DNA of 64,000 nt, from the NCBI GenBank assembly GCA_905478665.1, contig CAJQJL010000008.1, positions 62,001 to 126,000 of the forward strand, read 5' to 3'. Below, piece after piece: positions 37,084 to 61,657 of this stretch. The position numbers and the translations under genes were made by a program. This DNA comes from an uncultured Flavobacteriales bacterium (lineage in GTDB: Bacteria; Bacteroidota; Bacteroidia; Flavobacteriales_D; Crocinitomicaceae). The notes beneath the pieces are model-generated. The model saw only the letters and a list, made by a program, of their open reading frames with translations, searched no databases and was not told the DNA's origin. Position 1 is the first letter of the stretch. Each line of letters starts with the position of its first letter.

Positions 37084-38055
37084 CTAACAGCATCCACCGC
37101 CATCATAAAAATATGTCGATTCTGATATGTAAATATCATCTCTTTTCAACAGAGCTAATGCGCCAGCTGTTTTATCGCAAATTGCCAAAGGTGAATTCGG
37201 TGTTAAAAGGTGTCCGTTATGATCATCAAAATATTCGTCATCTCCATAATATATTGCTGTTTTGCCAGTAAAAACACATGGTCCATCAGCTGGCATCGGA
37301 TCTTTAATCGCGCACACCTCTACACTTTCTAAATAAATCAATTTTTCTGTGTCATAGTGTTTTGGATCAAGAACTCTATAGGGACGTTTCGCACGTACTT
37401 CTATTGTACCAAATCCTGCGTCCGTCAACATTTTTATGTACTCTTCTAGTGGAAGTGAGCCACTCAAACAAAGTGCTCTCAATTTTTCGTCATTCTTTAA
37501 AGACTCTGGCATTGGGTCTTCTGTAACAGGATCCGAAAGAACTAAACGTCCATTGGGTTTCAAAACACGGTACATTTCAGCAATCGCCTTTTTAAGATCT
37601 TCTTTGTCAAAAATATTGAAGAGACAATTTTGTGCTGCCACATCAATGGAGTTATCCTCAACAGGTAAGTTCAGAGCGTCTCCTTTTCGAATATCGACAA
37701 ACTCCGAATCGAACCAATCATTTGTCAGTTCAGCTACTTTCAAGTTTTCCTTACAGGCATCAATCATCTCATCGACTACATCAATACCTATTACTCCTTG
37801 TTTCTTCCGACTGAAATATGAAAACTGAAACACTTCCATTCCACCACCTACACCAACATACAATACAGTTGGAGAATTTACCAAATCACGTGGATTCACC
37901 GTACTTCCGCATCCATAATTCATTTCGAGCATAATTCCAGGCATGTTTAACTCTGGTAAAGCCCAAACAGGTGTCGTTGTGCAACACAATCCGACGTCAG
38001 GAGTAAGCGCAGCTTCTCTGTACACGTCAACTGTAGTATCTAAATATGATTTCAT
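37084..38055 (-). CDS. arsM: Arsenosugar-type arsenite methyltransferase ArsM
   Basis: A 323-residue SAM-dependent enzyme that methylates arsenite, the first step toward arsenosugars. Features: GLCCTTTPVWALPEL (Cys24/Cys25), MNYGCGSTV (Cys49), a SAM-binding loop VLYVGVGGGMEVFQF, Cys149-region AAQNCLFNIF, and a C-terminal GGGCC. The C-terminal extension beyond the methyltransferase fold (~245-323) is typical of the form found with arsS. It lies 82 bases downstream of arsS on the same strand; a palindromic site occupies the gap. Confidence 0.9.
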   Translation of the reverse strand: MKSYLDTTVDVYREAALTPDVGLCCTTTPVWALPELNMPGIMLEMNYGCGSTVNPRDLVNSPTVLYVGVGGGMEVFQFSYFSRKKQGVIGIDVVDEMIDACKENLKVAELTNDWFDSEFVDIRKGDALNLPVEDNSIDVAAQNCLFNIFDKEDLKKAIAEMYRVLKPNGRLVLSDPVTEDPMPESLKNDEKLRALCLSGSLPLEEYIKMLTDAGFGTIEVRAKRPYRVLDPKHYDTEKLIYLESVEVCAIKDPMPADGPCVFTGKTAIYYGDDEYFDDHNGHLLTPNSPLAICDKTAGALALLKRDDIYISESTYFYDGGGCC

Positions 38056-38087: not shown

Positions 38088-38128
38088 CAATATGTCGTTA
38101 ATTCTATATCGACATATTGCGATATAGA
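38088..38128 (-). promoter_or_regulatory. Putative ArsR-type operator upstream of arsM
   Basis: Two interleaved inverted repeats: CAATATGTCG (38088-38097) with CGACATATTG (38110-38119), and TCTATATCG (38103-38111) with CGATATAGA (38120-38128). The second is a 26-bp imperfect palindrome, 22 of 26 bases identical to the one at 59514-59539. Position before arsM fits a metalloid-responsive repressor; the regulator gene is not in the window. Confidence 0.6.
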
Positions 38129-38137
38129 TTCAACTAA

Positions 38138-39184
38138 TCAAGCTGTCACCCCACCACAACTTGACCCTGCACCTGCAGTGCAACCGTAGCAGTGTTGATT
38201 GACAATGATATTTCTATCGTTTAATTCGTCTATGTTAAATTCTGACAGATGTTTTCCCTTTGCTGCTACTTTCAATTCGAGCATTTGGTTAAAGTCACAA
38301 TCGTAAATGAACCCGTCCCAACCTATGGAAATGGTATTTCGACACATAACATTCTCCGCAGCAGAAGGATTGAAGGCATTGACTAATTTTTCCATGTAAG
38401 CGTGGTAATTATCACTTGCCACTAAGTATTGCAAATACCGACTAATTGGAAGATTAGTGATTGTAAATAAATTATTGAATTCTATATTGAATTGCTCCTT
38501 CAACTCACGTTTGTAATCAACTTCCAAGGCTGTTTGATCACCAGGTAAATTTGGACCCGACGGATTGAACACAAGATTCAACACCAAACCGCTACCGGGC
38601 ATACCATAACCCACTTCGTTTAGCATTTGAAGTGCCTTTATACTCTGATTAAACACACCATTTCCTCTTTGGGAATCTGTATTCTCTAGTGTATAACATG
38701 GAAGTGAAGAGATCACTTCAATATTGTGCTTCTTATAAAACTCTGGTAGTGAATTGTATTTTTTATTCGCAACAATAATAGTCAGGTTGCATCGAACAAT
38801 AACCTTCTTTCCCAGAAGTGACAATTGCTCTACAAACCATTCAAAATCAGGATTCATTTCTGGAGCTCCACCTGTAAGATCAACTGTTTTACAATTCGAT
38901 TTTTCGATTGCGTCCAAACAAAGCTTCATAGTATCACGGGTCATGATCTCCTTACGATCTGGACCAGCATCAACATGGCAATGGTTGCACACTTGATTGC
39001 ACATCTTACCCATATTCACTTGGAAAGTATCTAACTCCACTGTAGTTAATGGATAGAGTCCAATTTGATCCAAATTATCACTAAAACGCGTTAAACCGCT
39101 ACGGTCAATTAGTTCCAATTGTCGCTCACTTTCTGAAAGTACATGCTTCTGTGCAGCGAGAGATTTATGTGTCAATACGCTCAT
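38138..39184 (-). CDS. arsS: Arsenosugar biosynthesis radical SAM protein ArsS
   Basis: A 348-residue radical SAM enzyme that joins the SAM-derived 5'-deoxyadenosyl group to methylated arsenic to give the arsenosugar precursor. The cluster-binding motif is C62-x3-C66-x2-C69 (MCNQVCNHCHVDAGP), followed by LTGGAPEMNPDF. The C-terminus carries the diagnostic CYGCTAGAGSSCGG. A possible -7 box TAATTTTG (minus strand, 39252-39259) lies 68 bases upstream. Confidence 0.93.
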   Translation of the reverse strand: MSVLTHKSLAAQKHVLSESERQLELIDRSGLTRFSDNLDQIGLYPLTTVELDTFQVNMGKMCNQVCNHCHVDAGPDRKEIMTRDTMKLCLDAIEKSNCKTVDLTGGAPEMNPDFEWFVEQLSLLGKKVIVRCNLTIIVANKKYNSLPEFYKKHNIEVISSLPCYTLENTDSQRGNGVFNQSIKALQMLNEVGYGMPGSGLVLNLVFNPSGPNLPGDQTALEVDYKRELKEQFNIEFNNLFTITNLPISRYLQYLVASDNYHAYMEKLVNAFNPSAAENVMCRNTISIGWDGFIYDCDFNQMLELKVAAKGKHLSEFNIDELNDRNIIVNQHCYGCTAGAGSSCGGVTA

Positions 39185-58560: not shown

Positions 58561-59373
58561 ATGAGAAAAAAAAGAACGATACTTAAGTTTTTTATTCTGT
58601 CGGTGTTAATGCATGCTACATCTGCCTTTGGACAAACTTATGAGGACTGGTCTTCAGACAGTCTTACAAATTGGATTGACTTAAGAATAAAGAATATAAA
58701 TAAGAACATTCAAGAAATAGTTGAGATGCCTTTTGTCGTTCGCTCATTAGGCTGGGGATGCATGTGTCCAGATTACTACATTGGTGTTAGCCCTAATACT
58801 CAAGAAGGTCCTTGGATAAGTGTTATAGCTCCGGATGACTTTCCTGTTTCCGACACAAAAGGATATAGTTTAATTGTCACTGGGGTATTCACTGGCGATT
58901 CGGTGGAGGAAGATTTTCGGAATGAAGACGGTGAGCCTGAAGAATGGCTTTATAAGATGCCAGAGTTCAAAATTCATAACTGGAAAGAGAATCGAATGGA
59001 TTACGACGTTCCAGCACCGAAGGTTATTCTTAACAAGAGTCAGCCCGAAGGAACCAAAATACTAGGCAGTTGGAAACTAAACGATCTTTATGTCAATAGT
59101 GAGAAGAGAAACATTGACACCTCGCAATTGATAGTCTGGGACTTCACACCTGACAGAAAACTAACCAGTAGTATTACATCAAGTGAAGAACCGATGCGAT
59201 GGCACACTACAAAGGACAGTATTTTCATCACAGATTCAGAATTCCCAGATGAAAAAATTATTGGTACTTGGAAGGTCGAGGAGGTGCTGTTGACCTTAGA
59301 CTTGGTAATGAACGATAAAAGTAAACGACGTCTCATTTTTAGGCGCAAAACAGGTATTTTGGAGACGCAGTAA
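58561..59373 (+). CDS. Secreted protein with lipocalin-like C-terminal domain
   Basis: A 270-residue protein with a signal peptide (cleavage near SAFGQ, ~25). The N-terminal region has GWGCMCPDYYIGVSPNTQEG, with two close cysteines. The C-terminal half (~160-265) shows ILGSWKLNDLYVN, LIVWDFTPDRKLTSSI, SIFITDSEF and IIGTWKVEEVLLTLDLVM, the strand pattern of small lipocalin-like domains in Bacteroidota. The ligand is unknown. Its 3' region holds no clear terminator but lies next to the palindromes at 59514-59549. Confidence 0.78.
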   Translation: MRKKRTILKFFILSVLMHATSAFGQTYEDWSSDSLTNWIDLRIKNINKNIQEIVEMPFVVRSLGWGCMCPDYYIGVSPNTQEGPWISVIAPDDFPVSDTKGYSLIVTGVFTGDSVEEDFRNEDGEPEEWLYKMPEFKIHNWKENRMDYDVPAPKVILNKSQPEGTKILGSWKLNDLYVNSEKRNIDTSQLIVWDFTPDRKLTSSITSSEEPMRWHTTKDSIFITDSEFPDEKIIGTWKVEEVLLTLDLVMNDKSKRRLIFRRKTGILETQ

Positions 59374-59513
59374 AACACAGAATAGGACTGCATTGGTTTA
59401 GGTACAAAACTGGGTTAATGATTATGGGTACATTCGATTCAACAGTTGCGCAATGCTATGGAGATTTGGTGTTGATTTGTGTAGATGATTTTTCTGAGGA
59501 ATAATCCAATTTT

Positions 59514-59549
59514 TCAATATCGCAATATTGCGATATTGATTCTAGAATC
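59514..59549. promoter_or_regulatory. 26-bp perfect palindrome plus adjacent 12-bp palindrome
   Basis: Arms TCAATATCGCAAT and ATTGCGATATTGA (59514-59539) form a perfect palindrome, abutting GATTCTAGAATC (59538-59549), itself perfect. The first shares 22 of 26 positions with the arsM operator at 38103-38128. It lies between two convergent genes. No T-run follows on either strand, so it is not a standard terminator. Confidence 0.6.
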
Positions 59550-59595
59550 CGCCAATTAACAAACTCAATACAAGGCAACTCTTTTCCATTGACGA

Positions 59596-60039
59596 TCAAT
59601 TCCCTTCATACTTGTATGCTGATGCGCGATCAATCAAAGCACAATACAGAGCTCGAATCTCCCGCTCAACTTCTTCTTCATCAACTCCGACTTCAAAGCA
59701 TCGAAATTCAAAGGTTATTTTAACCTCTACAGAGCTAGGGTCTTTCTCCCACAAAATATTCCCACGTTGATGGTCTTTGAATGAGAAATAGATTCTCGGC
59801 CCATTATCGACTGTCATTTTCCAATCGCCTTCATGAATGAAATGATAAGTCAACATGTGCCCGCTCATGTCCGAAGAAATGTCAATGGTACTACTATCTC
59901 CTATTAAAGTAATATATCCCTTCACCACTTCAAAGTATGTAGGATCATCGCAATTATGGGCACCAGGAACATCAATCTCTACCACGTCATTGTACCCAAG
60001 CGCACCGAAAAACAACAATGACAATACTAGAATCTTCAT
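59596..60039 (-). CDS. Secreted protein of unknown function
   Basis: A 147-residue protein with a short signal peptide (MKILVLSLLFFGALG). The mature part is beta-rich (ITLIGDSSTIDISSDMSGHM, YHFIHEGDWKMTVDNGPRIY) with two cysteines (C29 in GAHNCDDP and one in EFRCFEVG) that could pair; the C-terminal ~35 residues are helical. I recognise no family. It begins eight bases after the metallophosphatase and is the fourth gene of the nuclease/nucleotidase operon. Confidence 0.75.
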   Translation of the reverse strand: MKILVLSLLFFGALGYNDVVEIDVPGAHNCDDPTYFEVVKGYITLIGDSSTIDISSDMSGHMLTYHFIHEGDWKMTVDNGPRIYFSFKDHQRGNILWEKDPSSVEVKITFEFRCFEVGVDEEEVEREIRALYCALIDRASAYKYEGN

Positions 60040-60047
60040 GGTTTAAT

Positions 60048-60953
60048 CTATTCAACAATCAACACATCCTTCTTCGCAAAGGCTTTCTTTTCAAATTGAA
60101 AATCAATTCGACCAACGTTGATTCCCGCCCAACCGACTTGATTCACCAATACAGTTTCTCCATCCAAATTCTTCTCCTCTGTTGGTTTCTCCAAAAAGGT
60201 GTGCGTGTGCCCTCCAATGATCAAATGAATGTTTCTCGTTTTTTGCGCAAAAACCCGATCGGATACTTTATCAGATCCATACTCATATCCGAGATGTGAG
60301 AGACAAATGATCAAATCACAGCCTTGTTTCTTTAGATCGCGTGCACGATCATTCGCAATATCAATTGGATCTATATAGACGGTTTCTTTGTATTTATCAT
60401 CTGGCACAAGTCCTTTTAATTCAACACCCACTCCGAAAATACCAACCTTGATATTTCCTTTCTGTACAATGAACGTATCATCTGTGTGACCATCAATAGC
60501 CGTATTCGTGAAATCGTAATTTGAACAGAGGAACGGAAATTTCGCATATTGCCGTGCTTTAACAAAACCATCAATACCCGCGTCAAAATCGTGATTTCCC
60601 ATTGTCGCGGCATCATACCCCAACTCTGACATTAAACGCATTTCGAGAACGCCGCCATACCTGTTAAAGTAAGGAGTTCCTTGAAAAATATCACCTGCAT
60701 CTAAAAGTAAAACATTCTCTTCTTCTGCACGTATTTTGTTGATGAGTTCAAATCGTCTTGCGACACCTCCTTTTCCCGGGTATCTTGAATGGTTTTCGGG
60801 AAATGGATCGATATTGGAATGTGTATCGTTGGTATGAAGAATGGTCAGGTGATTTTCTGAATTACTCGTCCCTTTAGCAAATAAAGAAGGTGCAACCAAC
60901 ACTCCTGCTGATACGACGACTGTATTTCTTAAAAAATCTCTTCTCTCCATCAT
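60048..60953 (-). CDS. Metallophosphatase, 5'-nucleotidase catalytic domain (split gene)
   Basis: A 301-residue protein equal to the N-terminal catalytic domain of 5'-nucleotidases. Metal-binding motifs: LHTNDTHSNIDP, LLLDAGDIFQGT, ATMGNHDFDAG, LICLSHLG and GGHTHTFLE. It starts with MERRDFLRNTVVVSAGVLVA; two adjacent arginines and the hydrophobic stretch suggest Tat-like or ordinary export. The substrate-binding C-terminal domain is encoded by the preceding gene, which overlaps it by four bases. Probably removes phosphate from nucleotides in the periplasm. Confidence 0.93.
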   Translation of the reverse strand: MMERRDFLRNTVVVSAGVLVAPSLFAKGTSNSENHLTILHTNDTHSNIDPFPENHSRYPGKGGVARRFELINKIRAEEENVLLLDAGDIFQGTPYFNRYGGVLEMRLMSELGYDAATMGNHDFDAGIDGFVKARQYAKFPFLCSNYDFTNTAIDGHTDDTFIVQKGNIKVGIFGVGVELKGLVPDDKYKETVYIDPIDIANDRARDLKKQGCDLIICLSHLGYEYGSDKVSDRVFAQKTRNIHLIIGGHTHTFLEKPTEEKNLDGETVLVNQVGWAGINVGRIDFQFEKKAFAKKDVLIVE

Positions 60954-61657
60954 TCGAAGGTTATTCTTTCTTCATTGTTGTAACGCAATACTTTTTGCAT
61001 TTTAACCTCTTCAAGAAAAACATCTCTCAATAACACGCCATCATTCTCAAAAGAAACTTTCTTTTCAAAGAAAGACATATTGTCGCCTCCATTCATTAAG
61101 TAATCGGACGTGATTATCCAAAAGGTTTTTGAATTACTAATCGGATCGAGAAAACGAATTTTTCCCTTTTCAATTTTAACCATTCCCACAGGCTCCCCTC
61201 CTCTCTTTCGCAAATAAGCTTCTATTTCAGGAAGTACTTCTATTGGCATTTCCACCCAAACAACGTTGTTGTCAAATGGCATTAGTTTAAATATATCCCC
61301 AACGGTAACATCTCCTTTGCTAATTGGATTCCGCAACCCTCCAACGTTTAACAATGACATCACTTGTCTTTGTCCTTTTGAAGTTCTTAGTTGATTGTCA
61401 AGAAGCGCATCCGTAGCCCAATTATTCAAGGTTCCGTTTGGTCTTCCCTTTGTGAAATCATGATCTGCATGTGCGATCACTTCCAACATCTCCTTTTCTA
61501 GATCTTTCTTGTAAGGCTGAACGATTGAGTCTATTCTATTTTCATGATCATATACACTATTCACTTCAACGCGTTCAGCGCTTGTATGAATAGTGGTAAC
61601 AGAAGAGCAGGCCAAAAGACCTGCTCCCATGCATATGTATATGAAATTCTTGAGCAT
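60950..61657 (-). CDS. 5'-nucleotidase C-terminal domain lipoprotein (split gene)
   Basis: A 235-residue lipoprotein (lipobox LLAC, Cys17). It corresponds to the C-terminal substrate-binding domain of 5'-nucleotidases: NGTLNNWATDALLD, SLLNVGGLRNPISKGDVTVG, DIFKLMPFDNNVVWVEM and the late ITSDYLMNGGDNMSFF. The catalytic domain is the next gene. The start codon overlaps the stop of the endonuclease gene by one base, and its own stop overlaps the metallophosphatase start by four. Confidence 0.93.
   Translation of the reverse strand: MLKNFIYICMGAGLLACSSVTTIHTSAERVEVNSVYDHENRIDSIVQPYKKDLEKEMLEVIAHADHDFTKGRPNGTLNNWATDALLDNQLRTSKGQRQVMSLLNVGGLRNPISKGDVTVGDIFKLMPFDNNVVWVEMPIEVLPEIEAYLRKRGGEPVGMVKIEKGKIRFLDPISNSKTFWIITSDYLMNGGDNMSFFEKKVSFENDGVLLRDVFLEEVKMQKVLRYNNEERITFE

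Follow-up and report, generated by a model that had tools for sequence, protein, structure and literature searches.

REP elements, which are accompanied by RAYT transposases, are short intergenic palindromes that are dispersed over a genome and occur in genome-specific variants, and a RAYT (Y1_Tnp) gene is expected in the genomes that carry them. NolR is a regulator with several targets. The described operator closest to the site reported here is that of ArArsR from Arsenicibacter rosenii SM-1, for which DNase I footprinting and EMSA show binding to TTTTATCGTAATATTGCGATCACAATC, located at −46 to −19 of arsR (PMC11868830). The As(III) response of ArArsR requires Cys41, Cys80 and Cys82, Cys43 being dispensable (PMC11868830). 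Intragenic PhoB sites of E. coli are an example of specific transcription-factor sites that lie away from promoters and may be inert or act by titration (PMC10294691).

The window, i.e. the whole stretch of 64,000 nucleotides that was analysed, contains at positions 59514-59539 a 26-bp sequence (TCAATATCGCAATATTGCGATATTGA) that is its own reverse complement and thus strandless; it is referred to below as the orphan site. A sequence-only reading of the window had called this palindrome perfect, and rightly so. No perfect palindrome in the window is longer, the second longest measuring 16 bp, and among 100 copies simulated with a dinucleotide-Markov model none reached 26 bp (simulated maximum 22 bp). 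A 12-bp palindrome (GATTCTAGAATC, 59538-59549, strandless), which the same reading had noticed next to it, is real and overlaps the 26-mer by two bases; its kind is found at chance level, the window having 20 perfect 12-bp palindromes and the simulated copies 19 on average. The orphan lies 3′ of both neighbours, likewise as claimed before: a 270-aa ORF on the + strand (58561-59373) ends 140 bp before it, and a convergent 147-aa ORF on the − strand (59596-60039) ends 56 bp from it. No Pfam or NCBIfam match to either ORF was obtained at E ≤ 0.001. One weak relative of the 147-aa ORF (26% identity) was found in G018, one of 39 other genomes, and no ortholog of the locus, as needed for a conservation comparison, was found in these 39. 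Next to the 147-aa ORF, a 5′-nucleotidase (60048-61657) is split across two adjacent ORFs, which hold the metallophosphatase part (60048-60953) and the C-terminal domain (60950-61657).

The 16-bp core of the orphan (ATCGCAATATTGCGAT, 59519-59534, strandless) differs from the footprinted ArArsR core (ATCGTAATATTGCGAT; PMC11868830) at 1 of 16 positions, the changed base making the orphan symmetric. ATCGTAATATTGCGAT was one of five strings searched in the literature and led to one ArsR paper, PMC11868830. A repressor of the cognate type, as expected for an ArArsR-type operator, is encoded in the genome from which the window comes: contig C144 carries an arsR-arsM-arsC operon (regions L278 1471-3217 and L317 5913-6566) with genes for arsenite methyltransferase and arsenate reductase, followed by an aquaporin-family (MIP) gene. 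In the numbering of PMC11868830, the cysteines of this ArsR are at positions 41, 43, 80 and 82, and the ArArsR core recurs exactly (16/16) at 15-30 bp before the C144 arsR start. The half-site ATATTGCGATAT is common to the orphan and the C144 operator, of which the orphan is the fully symmetric form. Over 26 bp, 5 of 13 position pairs are unpaired in this native ars operator and 0 to 3 in the five further sites of the same genome. The earlier view of the orphan as an ArsR-type operator sequence is thereby supported, one base separating it from a footprinted core and the same motif preceding the genome's own arsR. The two differ in place and symmetry: the published site lies at −46 to −19 of arsR, whereas the orphan is a perfect palindrome at convergent 3′ ends and not at the promoter of a regulated gene. 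The best PDB sequence match of the genome's own ArsR was the ArsR-fold regulator NolR (PDB 4omy) at 43 bits only, a likeness that concerns the protein sequence. We consider the orphan, with a probability of about 0.6, to be a putative ArsR-type binding site outside a promoter, close to ideal for a dimer of such a repressor, and one of a dispersed network of such sites.

A related 26-bp site (38103-38128, strandless) is located in the 82-bp gap between arsS (38138-39184, − strand; arsenosugar radical SAM protein, TIGR04167) and arsM (37084-38055, − strand; arsenosugar-type arsenite methyltransferase, NF038099). The sequence-only reading had reported a 22/26 match between both sites and had taken the orphan for the more perfect one; both statements agree with the four differing positions and with 2 of 13 unpaired position pairs in the arsM-side site. 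Its treatment of the latter as an established arsM operator did not hold. arsM was present in 23 of 40 genomes, and at the 23 other arsM loci (24 scanned, including the one in the window) the best match to the 26-bp pattern anywhere in the fetched region had at least six mismatches. In most of the upstream regions from relatives of the same genus, the sequence before arsM looks by eye like the end of arsS, leaving gaps of about 5 to 80 bp that hold no palindrome. One clear member of the wider family was located near arsM in G017, about 1.5 kb beyond the arsM end and not before the gene. Among the arsM loci scanned, a palindrome in the arsS-arsM gap was found in this genome only, where the site probably sits inside an operon; the label "arsM operator" for 38103-38128 is unproven and, for a site without conservation, not supported by the comparison.

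The genome of the window (3.90 Mb, 89% complete) was searched with a degenerate 26-mer consensus (TCWATATCGMMATATKKCGATATWGA) at up to 3 mismatches, with the reversed pattern as control, yielding five sites and no control match; a 20-bp pattern with one mismatch yielded 5 matches and 1 control match. The five sites are the orphan, the site in the arsS-arsM gap, one within the trpF reading frame, one located 77 bp before uvrC, with an OmpA-family gene on its other side, and one in the divergent gap between the bestrophin and phosphatidylserine-decarboxylase genes. Each shows 1 or 2 differences from the ArArsR core of PMC11868830. An arsenic gene adjoins one of the five copies and is missing beside four, in line with the option, raised before, that the orphan belongs to a dispersed set. 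The sequence-only reading had proposed such a genome-wide search, holding that many copies unrelated to metal genes would make both sites members of a repeat family and not operators. In location, the copies do correspond to this refuting condition, yet repeat versus operator is a false choice, the dispersed copies being operator-like sequences. A looser half-site search added a sixth place, the operator before arsR on contig C144. The sites at L014 3834 (contig C52 of this genome) and L233 3001 (G012) both follow a related OmpA-family gene (58% identity), the neighbour on the other side being different.

Copies across the genus were counted in 34 genomes using the pattern ATWTCGNNATATNNCGAWAT with one mismatch and a reversed-pattern control. 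At least one match was obtained in 16 of the 34 genomes, with 8 to 39 copies in eight relatives and 5 in the genome of the window; the control gave one match each in six genomes, including that of the window, and none in the eight rich ones. The sole match of G008, G009 and G021 is in each case the arsR operator. Some variants are genome-specific, such as ATTTCGCAATATTGCGAAAT in G028 and AAATCGGAATATTCCGATAT in G017 and G020. In a public genome collection, an exact 24-bp pattern was found in 29 stretches, 28 of them in MAGs titled Crocinitomicaceae, Fluviicola or Flavobacteriales. The remaining stretch belongs to a "Moraxellaceae" MAG (NORP69, contig L033); its contig name has an assembly label in common with the Fluviicola MAG NORP8, and it is possibly mis-binned. 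The exact 24-bp pattern was found in 0 stretches of a viral collection, and spread by viruses was rejected on this basis. No description of these dispersed sites was found in open-licence PMC texts.

Searching the 34 genus genomes with a profile of six ArsR sequences (E ≤ 1e-10) returned 49 genes in 31 genomes, which an unrooted tree divided with a support of 1.000 into 30 arsenic-type and 19 second-clade genes, one of the latter being broken and barely placed. Cys41 and Cys82 are kept in all 30 arsenic-type proteins, and the upstream motif is present before 30/30 of their genes at up to 3 mismatches, 28/30 at up to 2 and 23/30 at up to 1. Among second-clade proteins, none of 18 readable sequences retains Cys41 and none of 17 retains Cys80 or Cys82, but all 18 have Cys43; in 7 of 18 a cysteine stands at position 79, one residue off. 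From these losses the second clade may be blind to arsenite, subject to that nearby cysteine. A palindrome with up to 2 mismatches was located within 400 bp upstream of second-clade arsR in 10 of 10 cases (five species plus G030), and in 0 of 9 cases in G017, G020 and G025, where one gene is broken and one is cut by a contig end. Second-clade genes were found in 8 of 8 genomes with at least seven sites versus 1 of 26 others (Fisher p = 5e-7, kinship ignored), and the number of independent events behind this association may be small. Six of the 30 arsenic-type ArsR proteins (L298, L300, L301, L315, L316 and G030 C7:288332-288619) lack Cys43 and Cys80 and keep Cys41 and Cys82; by analogy to the C80S mutant of PMC11868830, they may sense methylarsenite only.

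The genomic context of the copies was recorded for nine genomes with five or more sites, using ORFs from a simple longest-ORF script and leaving out the contigs of NORP69 (L033) and ACE_NR_BACT17 (L040). The resulting 114 loci comprise 30 in convergent, 41 in tandem and 22 in divergent gaps, 16 in ORFs and 5 at edges; some of those 16 in "coding" sequence probably reflect spurious ORFs or matches by chance, mainly on the long G030 contigs. Further in-ORF sites are L040 2128 and G030 C7:54277. Convergent gaps are enriched, holding 30 of 93 intergenic loci versus 14.2 expected by number of gaps (p = 1.5e-5) and 11.4 by length (p = 2.4e-8), with base rates taken from 1.03 Mb of G030 and the genome's own sequence. 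Because a gene start lies within 200 bp at 52 of the 114 loci, many of the dispersed copies may be ordinary operators.

One rival to a protein-binding site is a neutral palindromic repeat, derived long ago from an ars operator and spread as DNA, so that the protein would be irrelevant at the copies; we regard it as unlikely. In its favour, intergenic loci make up 93 of the 109 classified, in sequence of which the same ORF script calls about 92% coding (1.03 Mb of G030 plus own sequence). After removal of copies with identical 40-mers within a genome, the copies of one genome share up to about 13-15 bp of flank (by eye), and in G022 an asymmetric variant (ATATCGTCATATTGCGAAAT) recurs at many loci; both indicate that copies have also been duplicated as DNA, something for which binding by a protein cannot account by itself. 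Palindromes also occur in tandem arrays of about 176 bp. Against a neutral repeat stand copies at matching places: with BLASTP hits at E ≤ 1e-12 required for both flanking ORFs, 17 locus pairs at ten places have both flanking genes related between two species, and among these places is the stretch before the second-clade arsR in four species. For 23 pairs, ungapped identity was 0.90 in the core (inflated, as the sites were chosen by the core) and fell in the flanks to 0.55 and then, at 21-60 bp, to 0.37. Here the likeness to the intragenic PhoB sites ends, since those are reported as non-conserved (PMC10294691), whereas several of the present copies recur at orthologous places and the majority are intergenic. 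Four coding copies speak against it as well. No palindrome-sized insertion was seen when the trpF copy was compared with 16 relatives, when a moaA-like gene with two sites was compared with solved MoaA (a single-residue gap lies near the second), or when a G022 gene with Mur-ligase domains, which we take to be folC-like, was compared with its site-less counterpart in G030. As the lengths are unchanged by anything of insertion size, the palindromes in these three genes (four sites) are indicated to have arisen by substitution or replacement. The same observation separates the copies from REP elements, which they resemble in being short palindromes dispersed between genes in genome-specific variants. 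RAYT genes (PF01797) were found in 3 of 7 strict carriers versus 10 of 27 other genus genomes and are absent from the genome of the window and from G022. At 20 RAYT loci (three from carriers, several cut by contig ends), no match with fewer than 3 mismatches was found within the fetched 1.5 kb. REP/RAYT repeats were rejected on these grounds.

The convergent enrichment (30 loci versus 11-14 expected) would also suit a terminator working in both directions, or another RNA hairpin, in such gaps. So would the pairing of positions 3 and 4, counted from the centre and left free by the search pattern: among 137 sites they pair in 64% and 58%, compared with 25-35% in distant flanks. These positions pair in only 11-43% of the G022 and G032 sites, though, and position 4 is unpaired in the native ars operator; a stem explains this pairing no better than a tolerant site for a dimeric protein does, and the pairing says no more than that. 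With copies inside trpF and the moaA-like and folC-like genes, and 0 terminator-like sites (G+C-rich stem plus T run) in 59300-59700, a terminator is very improbable. Pairing in the core as an argument for protein over hairpin was dropped, for the search pattern forces it. Equally small is the chance that the orphan serves as operator for a small RNA or peptide encoded by an unannotated gene, another option of the sequence-only reading, for which the 222-bp gap (59374-59595) offers seven short frames of 22-47 aa. It found no support: no Rfam match in the gap was obtained at E ≤ 1 (a single hit elsewhere was below gathering score), the Bacteroidota −7 element TAnnTTTG is absent from both strands of 59300-59700, and sigma-70-like hits (2) are at shuffle level (mean 1.2). 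If an arsenic gene or operon had been lost here and the orphan were what remains of it, this would account for a core with ars operator sequence; such an origin is likewise very improbable, as the trpF copy lies within an unrelated gene and the orphan exceeds the native operator in symmetry and is no decayed form. The repeat, terminator and small-RNA readings are all weaker than that of an ArsR-type binding site.

If the orphan is an ArsR-type binding site, its binder would likely be the genome's own As(III)-type repressor encoded on contig C144, dimers of which would hold the site without arsenite and leave it with arsenite. Since the site is at neither neighbour's promoter, any effect would be at most indirect, such as titration of repressor or a weak roadblock between the convergent genes; titration would draw on five extra sites, all of which surpass the single ars operator in symmetry. 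A decoy or titrating role and a role as transcription boundary are both guesses. The site set of this genome would be part of a dispersed network, which has more members in those relatives whose ArsR paralogs have no arsenic ligands. Counting against the ArsR reading, no second-clade gene was found at E ≤ 1e-10 in the genome of the window (89% complete), although such genes accompany dispersed sites elsewhere; G025 encodes two second-clade genes but gave no match to the searched pattern, and the paralogs of G017, G020 and G025 lack an upstream site at up to 2 mismatches. A wider proposal for the lineage is decidedly doubtful. There, an arsenic-sensing repressor would have been duplicated and, after loss of three arsenic ligands, have become a protein that binds across the genome at 8-39 sites. 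Many of these are at conserved places and in convergent gaps, and the protein would act on the boundaries of transcription or on how the chromosome is organised; in the genome of the window, the As(III)-sensing form would occupy a small site set and be released by arsenite everywhere at once. Should the sites be occupied, the operator of a local resistance repressor would have spread over a chromosome, with several copies kept at matching positions between species, and there would be a case for asking what repressor sites outside promoters do. As the number of sites goes with the presence of ArsR paralogs that have lost the arsenic ligands, this can be tested directly. Should they be unoccupied, operator-derived repeats would mislead motif-based annotation, the supposed arsM operator being an example.

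With regard to a clustering of sites linked to replication, GC skew in the window and along contig C7 of G030 is too weak to place origin or terminus; most sites of C7 lie toward its two ends, and the moaA-like gene with its sites lies in the middle. Inverted pairs or groups of palindromes 60-120 bp apart with unlike spacers occur in G030 at C7:15347-15468, C7:20335-20451 and C11:36942-37300. In a Fluviicola MAG, the tandem arrays (L045 5200-5575 and L055 2651-3028) consist of three units of about 176-178 bp with one palindrome per unit, and in G022 (L265 3365 and 4292) a palindrome stands shortly before each start codon of tandem duplicated genes.
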